This document shows, piece by piece, positions 10,608 to 13,783 of a stretch of DNA of 64,000 nt. Source of the DNA: Winogradskyella ludwigii (GTDB lineage: Bacteria > Bacteroidota > Bacteroidia > Flavobacteriales > Flavobacteriaceae); the NCBI RefSeq assembly GCF_013403985.1, contig NZ_JABFDF010000002.1, positions 1 to 64,000 of the forward strand, written 5' to 3'. The first letter of the stretch is position 1; each line of letters begins with the position of its first letter. Under the pieces are notes generated by a model. It was not told where the DNA came from, searched no databases, and saw nothing but the letters and a program-made list of their open reading frames with translations. The position numbers and the translations under genes are program-made.

Positions 10608-11690
10608 TTACATCTTTTTGTAAAGGTCCAGAAGTTTTTGTCTGGTCATAATGGTTTTCCAGTTTTTACCAATGGCATTTTCCCAAAGCGGCTCTAAACT
10701 TAACGCCACATCGATCATTTTATCAAATTGATCTTGATCTAAATTAGCACAAATACCTTGAGGTAACTCAATATTGTGTTTGGCCTTCATTTGCTTAAAA
10801 ATAGCAACACCTTCAGGATAATAATCCTCCAAGTGATCAAATACAATACAGTTACCAATACCATGCTTAACACCCAATAAATAGCCTAAACCGTAACTTA
10901 ATGCGTGTGCAACACCAACTTGAGAATACGCAATACTCATTCCGCCGTGCCATGATGCCATCATTAACTTATCTTGAGCCTCTTCTTTGCTTAAAGTATC
11001 TTCTAAAAATATTTCTTTACAAAGCTCAAATGCTTTCTCTCCATAACTCTGACTGAAGGCATTTAAATATGTTCCTGTTAAAGATTCTACACAATGTACA
11101 AAGCAATCCATACCTGTATAAAACCATTGATCTTTTGGTACATCTTTAGTTAATTCTGGATCTAAGACTACTTGATCAAAAGGTGTAAAATCACTATTAA
11201 TTCCTAGTTTTCTTACAGGACCTGTTAAAATCGTAGTTCTAGATACTTCTGCTCCTGTACCAGAAATTGTAGGAATACCAACATGAAAAATAGCTGGTTG
11301 TTTAATTAAATCCCAACCTTGGTAATCTTTAGACTCTCCTTTATTAGTAAGCATTAAAGACACCGCTTTTGCAACATCTAAAACAATACCACCTCCGATA
11401 CCAATAATACCAGATGGCAGTTCGCTATACTCAAGGATAATATCTTCTACCAACTGATCTATTTGATCTGTTTTAGGCTCTTCTAATGTAGGAACATATA
11501 TAATTTTGTCTTTGTAAGACAATCGTATTCTAGACGTTAACCAATGATTGCCCTTAAAGACATCATCAACATAAAATATAAATGGTGCATTACGTCCTTT
11601 GCGTTTTGGCGCGAGAATTTCATCGAGTTGATTGAAACTTCCACGTCCGAAAACTACTCTGGACACCATTGGATAATTTTTGTATATCAT
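10608..11690 (-). CDS. kdnB: Kdo 8-oxidase KdnB (iron-containing alcohol dehydrogenase)
   Basis: A 360-residue iron-dependent alcohol dehydrogenase. The nucleotide-binding motif GIGGGIVLDVAKAVSLMLTN and the conserved HVGIPTISGTGAEVSR are present; the metal ligands are D and H in TGMDCFVHCVES, H in VGVAHALSYG and H in KHGIGNC. As remembered, the sequence is close along most of its length to Shewanella oneidensis KdnB (VFGRGSFNQLDEIL, KLGINSDFTPFDQV, DQWFYTGMDC), which oxidises the C8 hydroxyl of Kdo before transamination to 8-amino-Kdo. The nearby kdsB supports this. No KdnA-type aminotransferase gene is in the window. Confidence 0.8.
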   Translation of the reverse strand: MIYKNYPMVSRVVFGRGSFNQLDEILAPKRKGRNAPFIFYVDDVFKGNHWLTSRIRLSYKDKIIYVPTLEEPKTDQIDQLVEDIILEYSELPSGIIGIGGGIVLDVAKAVSLMLTNKGESKDYQGWDLIKQPAIFHVGIPTISGTGAEVSRTTILTGPVRKLGINSDFTPFDQVVLDPELTKDVPKDQWFYTGMDCFVHCVESLTGTYLNAFSQSYGEKAFELCKEIFLEDTLSKEEAQDKLMMASWHGGMSIAYSQVGVAHALSYGLGYLLGVKHGIGNCIVFDHLEDYYPEGVAIFKQMKAKHNIELPQGICANLDQDQFDKMIDVALSLEPLWENAIGKNWKTIMTRQKLLDLYKKM

Positions 11691-11725
11691 TTACTTTATA
11701 TCTTTAACAAAAATAACAACTTAGT

Positions 11726-12355
11726 TTAGATTTCTTGACTATTTAAATGAAATTGTAATCTTTCATTAAAAAGTCCAACATGGTAGCCATCTACCAAGGC
11801 ATGATTAACACTTATTGCTACATGCATTTCTTTTTTTGATCCTATACTTTCCATTTTACTAAAAGCTAATTTTGGTATGGAATCTTTTTCACCTTTAAAC
11901 GGTTCTTTGTGACCTGTAAAATTAACCCATGGCAACGATGAACAATGTACGCAATCCATTGAATTTTCAGGCGGAAACAAATCATTTGAATTAAATACTC
12001 TTTCTTTTTCTTCTAAAAAATTAGCTTGAAATTTAAGAATATCTTCATCATATTTCACAAACGTGAATCCAAACGTTTTATTTGGTCTTAATATCGTTGG
12101 AGAGGCATGAATAGTATCAAAAACAACAACCTCGTTAGCGTCGTTTATTCTGTATTTTAAATTCTCTACGTCATTTACAGCACTCATAGTTGCATGCAAA
12201 TAAGTCACAAAAAAAGACACCTCGTGCAAACGAGAAAACTCGTAAGCTTTAGTGACATCTACCTTTATAGTAACTCCAAAATAGGGATCATTAAATGTAT
12301 TAAAAAACTCAAAATGAGCTTGTCTATTCCAGGTATGTTTATCTAATATTTTCAA
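11726..12355 (-). CDS. Chloramphenicol-acetyltransferase-fold O-acetyltransferase
   Basis: A 209-residue protein of the CAT (type A) fold. The catalytic histidine is in SVNHALVDGYHVG (H185, with D189), the HXXXDG signature near the C-terminus; the N-terminal part (NRQAHFEFFNTFNDPYFGVTIKVDVT) matches the family start. Most CAT-like proteins in environmental Bacteroidota are not resistance proteins but acetylate other acceptors. Placement between kdnB and a HAD phosphatase in a Kdo gene run hints at acetylation of a sugar or envelope component, but that is inference. It lies 1 base from the HAD gene, so they are in one operon. Confidence 0.85.
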   Translation of the reverse strand: MKILDKHTWNRQAHFEFFNTFNDPYFGVTIKVDVTKAYEFSRLHEVSFFVTYLHATMSAVNDVENLKYRINDANEVVVFDTIHASPTILRPNKTFGFTFVKYDEDILKFQANFLEEKERVFNSNDLFPPENSMDCVHCSSLPWVNFTGHKEPFKGEKDSIPKLAFSKMESIGSKKEMHVAISVNHALVDGYHVGLFNERLQFHLNSQEI

Positions 12356-12356
12356 A

Positions 12357-13064
12357 TTACGAATTAAAAAAACTTAAAATTTCCGTTAAATTCTCTACCG
12401 TTTTATAATCCGATCCATTAGCTTCTTTTTTTGATACGGTTTCATGTTGCCAAGTGGTATGAAATGGCACATGAATGGCCTGAGATCCAATTTTTACTAA
12501 TGGTAAAATATCAGATTTAAGGGAATTACCAACCATTAAAAAAGCTTCTGGCTTAATATCTAATCGTTTTAATAAGTGTTCATAATTAGTATCATGCTTT
12601 TCACTTAAGACTTCAATATGATGAAAATATTTTAACAATCCTGATTTTTCTAATTTTCGTTCTTGATCTAATAAATCGCCTTTTGTAGCTACAATTAACC
12701 TATAATCTTTAGACAATACTTTAAGTACCTCTTCTACTCCATCGAGCAATTCAATGGGTTTATTAATCATGTCTTTACCTAGAACTAGTATTTTAGAAAT
12801 GACATCATTAGAAACTGTTCCATTGGATAAATCCACAGCCAATTCAATCATAGATAATATAAAACCTTTTACTCCATAACCGTATGTTGGAAGGTTTACA
12901 ATTTCCATTCTAAATAGCTCTTGGTCTATTTTATTTGGCGTCTCGTAATGCGATAATAGTTGACCAACTTCTTCTTCAGCTTCTCTAAAGTAAGTTTCGT
13001 TAACCCATAACGTATCATCTGCATCAAAACCAATGACTTTTATGTTGCTGTAATCTACTTCCAC
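12357..13064 (-). CDS. HAD-superfamily hydrolase
   Basis: A 235-residue haloacid-dehalogenase-type phosphatase. Motif I is GFDADDTLW (nucleophile D14, D16), motif II is the IVATKG segment, and motif III/IV is [20 protein letters not shown] helical cap is inserted after motif I, as in subfamily I (YjjG/CbbY-like) phosphatases. It overlaps the end of kdsB by 10 bases. The Kdo pathway needs a phosphatase (KdsC) for Kdo-8-phosphate, but KdsC is a capless C0-type HAD, so this protein is not KdsC. The substrate is unknown. Confidence 0.8.
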
Positions 13065-13783
13065 AAACGCTTAGCTTTTTCTAAATCTTCTGGTGTATCT
13101 ATTTCTACTCCTTCTATTTTGGTTTCGACCATTTTAATACGTTTTCCGTATTCTAAATATCTGATGCATTCAATTTTCTCTGAAGCTTCAAGAAACTGCA
13201 TTGGTAAAACGGTAAATTCTAATAAAGCTTCTTTTCTAAACGCATAAATTCCTTTATGTTTAAAGTAACGGGTTCCTACATTTTTATCTCTTGGAAAAGG
13301 AATTGGACTTCGGGAAAAATATAACGCAAAATTTTGCTGATCTACAATAACTTTAACCGTATTGGGATTACTAATTTCTTCCCAATCGCTAATTTCTACC
13401 ATTAAAGAGGCTAAATCTATTTCTTTGTCTTTATCCGCTTTAAAGACTTCAACAACTTTTGCCAGACTTTCACGTTCTGTAAAAGGCTCGTCTCCTTGCA
13501 CATTTATTACTATATCGCAATCTATATGAGCAACAGCTTCCGCTATTCTATCACTTCCAGATTCGTGTTCTTTAATGCTCATAATAGCTTTACCACCATT
13601 ATTTACAATCTCATTAAAAATGATGTCACTATCTGTAACCACGTAGACTTCACTAAATAATTCAGTGGCAACTGTGGCTTCATATGTTCTTAAAATAACG
13701 GATTTTCCTGCTAAATTTTGCATCAACTTACCTGGAAATCGCGACGCACTATAACGTGCAGGAATCATGGATATAATTTTCAT
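13055..13783 (-). CDS. kdsB: 3-deoxy-manno-octulosonate cytidylyltransferase KdsB
   Basis: A 242-residue enzyme that joins CTP and Kdo to make CMP-Kdo, the activated sugar for the LPS inner core. The N-terminal [14 protein letters not shown] is the nucleotide-binding motif; NVQGDEPF contains the metal-binding Asp, and the [16 protein letters not shown] segment is typical of KdsB. It starts the minus-strand operon kdsB-HAD-CAT-kdnB-plsC. In organisms with KdnA/KdnB the homologous enzyme uses 8-amino-Kdo, so the true substrate here may be Kdo or Kdo8N. Confidence 0.93.

Follow-up and report, generated by a model that had tools for sequence, protein, structure and literature searches.

The pathway to Kdo8N (8-amino-3,8-dideoxy-manno-octulosonate), the amino version of the core sugar Kdo (3-deoxy-D-manno-octulosonate), was reportedly described by Gattis and co-workers in 2013 in Shewanella oneidensis, where it involves KdnB, KdnA and KdsB, and the genes for these enzymes are presumably clustered in that organism. 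Here, we analysed a stretch of 64,000 nucleotides from Winogradskyella ludwigii (contig NZ_JABFDF010000002.1, positions 1 to 64,000, hereafter called the window), a member of the Flavobacteriaceae with a genome of 4.0 Mb in 29 contigs, in which kdsB and kdnB belong to the same run of genes. It is very likely that the window holds two of the three genes of the Kdo8N pathway, with kdnA unlinked, and that KdnB, KdnA and KdsB act in that order, Glu227 of KdsB recognizing the 8-ammonium group and WaaA transferring the sugar. The observations behind this proposal are the presence of the genes, the tight co-occurrence of KdnA and KdnB, the tracking of both by Glu227 and the existence of kdsB-kdnB fusions.

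Kdo8N has been described as a hallmark of Shewanella, with its C8 at 44.8 ppm in Shewanella sp. HM13 (PMC6357163). A review of marine lipopolysaccharides (LPS) ascribes it to Shewanella and sets it apart from every other LPS structure known at that time (PMC3210612). Similarly, Kdo8N is treated under Shewanella in PMC4052302, with a note of its confirmation in 'other bacterial species', and KdnB is listed as a Shewanella enzyme in PMC5125639. The core of Capnocytophaga canimorsus is given with one residue, written Kdo (PMC3342949). Our literature search, with subscription journals largely outside its coverage, found no paper on a Kdo8N pathway in Flavobacteriaceae; a paper on Leptospira contains the term KdnB.

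Genes of a probable Kdo8N pathway in Winogradskyella ludwigii

The kdnB gene (10608-11690, minus strand) codes for a 360-residue protein of the iron-type alcohol dehydrogenase (Fe-ADH) family. This protein matches the solved Kdo 8-oxidase 5k8c with 453 bits over residues 1-359 and 3rf7, an Fe-ADH without assigned function, with 450 bits, the next match scoring 94. Residues D195, H199, H262 and H276, which we take to be the metal ligands from what is known of the Fe-ADH family, are retained, and the corresponding columns are invariant in seven aligned relatives. The window thus provides, by its score to 5k8c and its ligand positions, the KdnB ortholog that the Kdo8N pathway requires.

A preliminary description of the window had reported kdsB, a HAD phosphatase gene, a CAT-fold acetyltransferase gene and kdnB in one operon without a DegT-type aminotransferase gene, and it had proposed that KdnA lies elsewhere or else that some other Kdo derivative is the substrate of the acetyltransferase and the phosphatase. 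We found the four genes at the positions it gave, and in the genome-wide search for a KdnA homologue that it called for, all 13 DegT matches (E <= 0.001, five of them strong) fall outside the window, the sole one on the same contig being at C22:320588 (genomes, contigs and loci are designated by G, C and L numbers, respectively). KdnA does lie elsewhere: the protein encoded at G000:C26:74767-75957 matches the solved KdnA 5k8b with 465 bits (residues 1-392), against 176 bits for the solved protein ranked second. This match rules out that KdnA is truly missing. 5k8b is named 8-amino-3,8-dideoxy-alpha-D-manno-octulosonate transaminase, and we take both 5k8b and 5k8c to be Shewanella proteins. NCBIfam does not decide among the five strong DegT proteins, since all of them score below the cut-offs of their best models (LegC for the C26 protein and PseC-, LegC- or DesI-type for the other four); the comparison with solved structures was made for the C26 protein only. 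A further strong DegT aminotransferase is encoded at G000:C27:150651-152691; its gene adjoins one for an epimerase, GalE-like as judged by eye, and is near the gene for a WaaA domain.

A canonical KdsC (C26:90572, approximately 15 kb from kdnA) and KdsA (C11:276955) were identified above their cut-offs, and a WaaA-type domain is encoded at C27:152203. Together with KdnA, KdnB and KdsB, they complete the gene set for converting Kdo into Kdo8N and transferring the product. From this set, we infer the reactions that would take place in this organism. KdsA and KdsC would make the precursor Kdo, whose C8 would be oxidized by KdnB, and KdnA would transaminate the oxidized sugar to Kdo8N. The single KdsB, with Glu227 recognizing the 8-ammonium group, would activate Kdo8N to CMP-Kdo8N, and WaaA would transfer Kdo8N to lipid A, hence its predicted presence in the LPS.

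We searched 120 Flavobacteriaceae genomes, one per genus, for KdnA (E <= 1e-60) and KdnB (E <= 1e-40). Each protein was found in 80/120 genomes and both in 77 (Fisher p 7e-24, kinship being ignored; all Fisher p values given here treat related genomes as independent). Genes that are mostly unlinked but present and absent together are what is expected for a two-step pathway. No kdnA was found in the flanks (at most 8 kb per side, less at contig ends) of the 80 nearest kdnB loci, i.e., the closest kdnB relatives among the matches listed and hence related loci, which indicates that kdnA and kdnB are, as a rule, apart in this group. Among the named genomes, the 29 top-scoring kdnB loci all belong to Winogradskyella. 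The three pathway genes do not form one cluster in W. ludwigii, with kdnA on another contig, and clustering of kdnA, kdsB and kdnB is not needed for function.

Closer associations occur in relatives. In G025 and G312, the genes kdnA, kdsB and kdnB adjoin one another, and kdnA is directly beside kdsB in G148, as judged by coordinates. In 15 of the 80 KdnB-containing family genomes, kdsB and kdnB form a single open frame of 611-643 residues (L186-L200, e.g., L188:3689-5602), with neither HAD nor CAT between them, and the Pfam domains of both KdsB and KdnB were confirmed in one checked fusion. That these long KdnB frames might be HAD fusions was also considered and ruled out, as the partner is KdsB. 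Both the adjacency and the fusions favour KdsB as the enzyme that acts after KdnB and KdnA, on the sugar that they yield.

Residue 227 of KdsB

The kdsB gene of the window (13055-13783, minus strand), whose product scores above the TIGR00466 cut-off, is the only one in this genome at E <= 1e-25. KdsB was matched in 117 of the 120 genomes, mostly in one copy (two in G004, G033, G049 and G065), with no match in G048, G079 and G083. We aligned 111 KdsB proteins and ranked the columns by their separation of KdnB-positive from KdnB-negative genomes, with G052 (weak KdnA match) placed in the negative group, as was G099, which counts as positive in the Fisher tests. Column 227 ranks first, with Glu in 73/73 KdnB-positive genomes, and Gly (32), Ser (3), Ala (1) or Glu (2) in the 38 negative ones. 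Six KdnB-positive genomes whose matches failed to span the alignment, and which were therefore not part of it (G019, G038, G071, G084, G107 and G115), were read separately; all have Glu227, giving totals of 79/79 versus 2/38. KdsB of G059, by contrast, has Gly227. The second-ranked column, Lys177, is found in 70/73 KdnB-positive versus 6/38 KdnB-negative genomes. Glu227 is also present in 77/77 of the nearest loci that can be read at this position (3 of the 80 are unreadable), in six additional KdnB-positive genomes of the family (G148, G222, G248, G314, G342 and G350) and, outside the family, in 6/6 genomes from two families (G152, G233, G244, G267, G369 and G312; KdnB 59-65% and KdnA 49-59% identical).

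On a KdsB tree built without columns 227 and 177, the kdnA/kdnB status changes 10 times and Glu227 changes 9 times, all 9 on the same branches, with 5 for the next best of 216 columns; parsimony ties were settled by a fixed rule, and the ten change points are thus an estimate. The unmatched change lies on the branch of G021 and G117. This is a quick tree, with 8/108 inner branches starred, and the starred branches alone yield 5 independent pairs, with a mean trait agreement of 4.9 over 200 pairings and a median sign-test p of 0.0625, too few pairs for significance.

The codon of Glu227 (13103-13105, minus strand) is two residues ahead of that of Asp229. In four aligned solved KdsB proteins, 1gq9, 1vh1, 3jtj and 3k8d, which we take to be KpsU and the E. 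coli, Yersinia and E. coli proteins, in that order, the residue equivalent to 227 is Gly. Judged by the offset at the end of the alignment with 2y6p, Asp229 corresponds to D219 of Aquifex KdsB, a ligand of Mg-A (PMC3149649). A Glu placed close to the sugar would be a fitting partner for an 8-ammonium group, and the covariation of Glu227 with KdnA and KdnB supports KdsB activating Kdo8N, such that the window protein is a predicted CMP-Kdo8N synthetase. It might also be that Glu227 covaries with KdnA and KdnB for reasons beyond substrate recognition, such as a KdsB-KdnB contact, as kdsB and kdnB are neighbours or fused and Lys177 covaries too, although more weakly. We consider this rather unlikely, because Glu227 is two residues from the active-site Mg-A ligand, probably a place of substrate contact, and is kept in genomes whose kdnB is well away from kdsB (e.g., G244 and G152).

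Several observations weigh against the proposal of a widespread Kdo8N pathway with Glu227 as its signature. KdnA occurs alone in G048, G052 and G083, and KdnB alone in G062, G066 and G099; of these six genomes, four (G048, G062, G066 and G083) are less than 90% complete, and the other two, G052 (KdnA 40% identical) and G099, have weak matches. In a phylum-wide draw of 296 genomes, 22 of them with KdnB, in which rich genera weigh more, at least 20 Flavobacteriaceae lack KdnB, at least 17 of them in one genus, versus 10 that have it, and thus large genera can be devoid of KdnB. G021 (L225) and G117 (L254) keep both Glu227 and Lys177 while neither kdnA nor kdnB was found in them; either KdsB with Glu227 can still accept Kdo, or kdnA and kdnB were lost recently. 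Among more distant pairs, G210, G263, G306 and G365 (KdnB 49-52%, KdnA 43-48% identical) carry Cys or Ser at position 227 of the KdsB homologues found in them, and G262 and G286 (KdnB 44%, KdnA 40%) Gly or Ala, which may mean that such pairs serve another sugar or that Glu227 is not universal. Shewanella is the genus in which the pathway was proven; our search for a Shewanella KdsB or KdnB sequence gave nothing among plasmids and phages at the limits applied, and one 39% relative in viral contigs.

Two sets of loci deserve mention here. In G099 (L184), a 270-residue KdnB frame (44% identical) lies beside a KdnA in two frames, by all appearances a decaying kdnA-kdnB pair. At L292, L294, L295 and L296, from other Bacteroidota families, a distant KdnB adjoins a distant KdnA (43-48%), and KdsB is devoid of Glu227; these loci perhaps represent a related pathway for another sugar.

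Among the genomes examined that are at least 90% complete, G236, from the same family, is the one in which we saw a full-length KdnB without KdnA. The kdnB of G236 (L293:1501-2577) occupies its usual position, flanked by HAD and plsC, and the protein is 51% identical, with two of the four metal ligands replaced (H199Q and H262R). No KdnA ortholog was found in this genome, the best match (2e-34) being at the level of other DegT proteins, and its KdsB carries Gly227. This KdnB has probably lost its chemistry and would be dead or repurposed. The situation without KdnA envisaged in the preliminary description thus exists, in another species.

The HAD and CAT-fold proteins and other genes of the run

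The minus-strand run consists of genes for a RecD-like helicase, a DUF4126 protein (PF13548; 13835-14392), KdsB, a HAD hydrolase (12357-13064), a CAT-fold acyltransferase (11726-12355), KdnB and, at the downstream end, a plsC-like acyltransferase (PF01553; 10016-10564), with intergenic gaps of 1 to 52 bases. kdsB and the HAD gene overlap by 10 bases, and the spacings are 1 base between HAD and CAT, 35 between CAT and kdnB and 43 between kdnB and the plsC-like gene; HAD and CAT are probably co-transcribed with the run. The order kdsB-HAD-kdnB-plsC is common to 80/80 nearest kdnB loci, which indicates that the arrangement is not due to chance, with CAT in 36/80 and the DUF4126 gene, an optional neighbour upstream of kdsB, in 43/80. 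The plsC-like gene also adjoins kdsB where HAD, CAT and kdnB are absent (L231 and L232), and this short acyltransferase is possibly tied to LPS or lipid synthesis.

The HAD protein (Pfam Hydrolase) keeps the D14/D16 motif and is a relative of 3ddh and 2pke. The possibility that it is KdsC was ruled out, as its NCBIfam matches (E <= 0.01) do not include TIGR01670 and a separate KdsC is encoded on C26; with a canonical KdsC present, the HAD protein is not needed as the Kdo-8-phosphate phosphatase. Its gene lies between kdsB and kdnB in 60/79 loci of the family (G099 left out), the others being the 15 fused loci and those of G025, G046, G092 and G112, and a relative of 51-57% is encoded elsewhere in seven genomes, five of them of the fused type (5/15). 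Conversely, HAD is beside kdsB without kdnB in seven genomes, together with CAT in G021 and G077, which have neither kdnA nor kdnB, and alone in G002, G059, G064, G102 and G117. KdnB is present in 67/77 genomes with HAD versus 13/43 without (Fisher p 5e-10), the kind of association expected from the inheritance of a shared locus, and one that breaks both ways.

The CAT-fold protein (Pfam CAT, 92 bits) has a His185-xxx-Asp189-Gly motif, whose His and Asp are each conserved in 97% or more of the 79 sequences that were aligned. It is a patchy member of the run, in that its gene is found in the kdsB run of 23/120 genomes, two of which, G021 and G077, are without KdnB; the CAT fragments of G051 were not counted there, and G051 is included among the 41 CAT-positive genomes. 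We found no significant association between CAT and KdnB in the family sample, with KdnB in 31/41 CAT-positive versus 49/79 CAT-negative genomes (Fisher p 0.16). HAD is present in 37/41 versus 40/79 of these genomes, respectively (Fisher p 1.6e-5), and CAT and HAD are paired away from kdsB in G003 and G114.

One possibility is that Kdo8N is made and that, in CAT carriers, CAT N- or O-acetylates Kdo8N or CMP-Kdo8N, with HAD dephosphorylating the same sugar. The operon position and the pairing of CAT with HAD, even off kdsB, are consistent with it, but CAT is not associated with KdnB and is kept in G021 and G077 without kdnA and kdnB, making this scenario improbable; acetylation of Kdo8N in CAT-bearing species is thus possible and not favoured. 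That the 8-oxo-Kdo formed by KdnB stays unaminated and that CAT and HAD make another Kdo derivative is very improbable despite the catalytic residues of CAT and its location 1 base from HAD and 35 from kdnB, because KdnA is present, and accompanies KdnB in 77/120 genomes, because CAT is in the kdsB run of 23/120 genomes, two without KdnB, and because HAD and CAT persist where kdnA and kdnB are gone. The second proposal of the preliminary description, that these two proteins act on a different Kdo derivative, is not supported where it would stand in for KdnA, given their retention in G021 and G077, the p value of 0.16 for CAT and the lack of HAD in the 15 fused loci. In the Kdo8N reading that we prefer, HAD and CAT would form a module of their own, with a task separate from Kdo8N.

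Breadth of the pathway and comparison with known systems

The cluster of the window is part of a pathway of a known kind, split over two loci, and is largely ordinary. What deserves a second look is how widespread the pathway is among Flavobacteriaceae, together with the proposed Glu227 switch and the kdsB-kdnB fusions. Because the pathway genes tend to come and go together along with Glu227, our data suggest that many related bacteria may carry this amino form of a sugar of the outer-membrane core, known above all from Shewanella. On balance, we lean towards Kdo8N being no hallmark of Shewanella but the sugar of the inner core in most genera of Flavobacteriaceae and in scattered other Bacteroidota, with several losses and perhaps more than one gain, and with a single Gly/Glu switch at position 227 of KdsB that would decide between Kdo and Kdo8N, and with the fused KdsB-KdnB proteins coupling two steps. 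If the genera with KdnA and KdnB (80/120 each) make Kdo8N, an amino-bearing linker sugar would be common in the outer membranes of Flavobacteriaceae, with consequences for membrane charge and for the interpretation of LPS analyses in this family. The Glu227 switch would then be both a one-residue genome marker of the sugar and a directly testable specificity determinant.

Regarding the individual proteins, the CAT-fold protein resembles CatA-type chloramphenicol acetyltransferases by its Pfam CAT domain and its His-xxx-Asp-Gly motif, and it differs from them in that its score reaches the cut-off of none of the four CatA models in NCBIfam (at best 103 bits, versus 270). KdsB resembles ordinary CMP-Kdo synthetases (3k8d and 2y6p) by its family, its QGDEP motif and the Mg ligand Asp229; unlike them, it has Glu227 where they have Gly ahead of that residue. 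As for the pathway, the W. ludwigii system is similar to that of S. oneidensis in that its KdnB and KdnA orthologs score highly against 5k8c and 5k8b, respectively, and in that kdsB is beside kdnB. It differs from it in that kdnA is unlinked, with linkage in G025, G148 and G312, in that HAD and CAT are part of the run, and in that 15 relatives have kdsB and kdnB in one frame.

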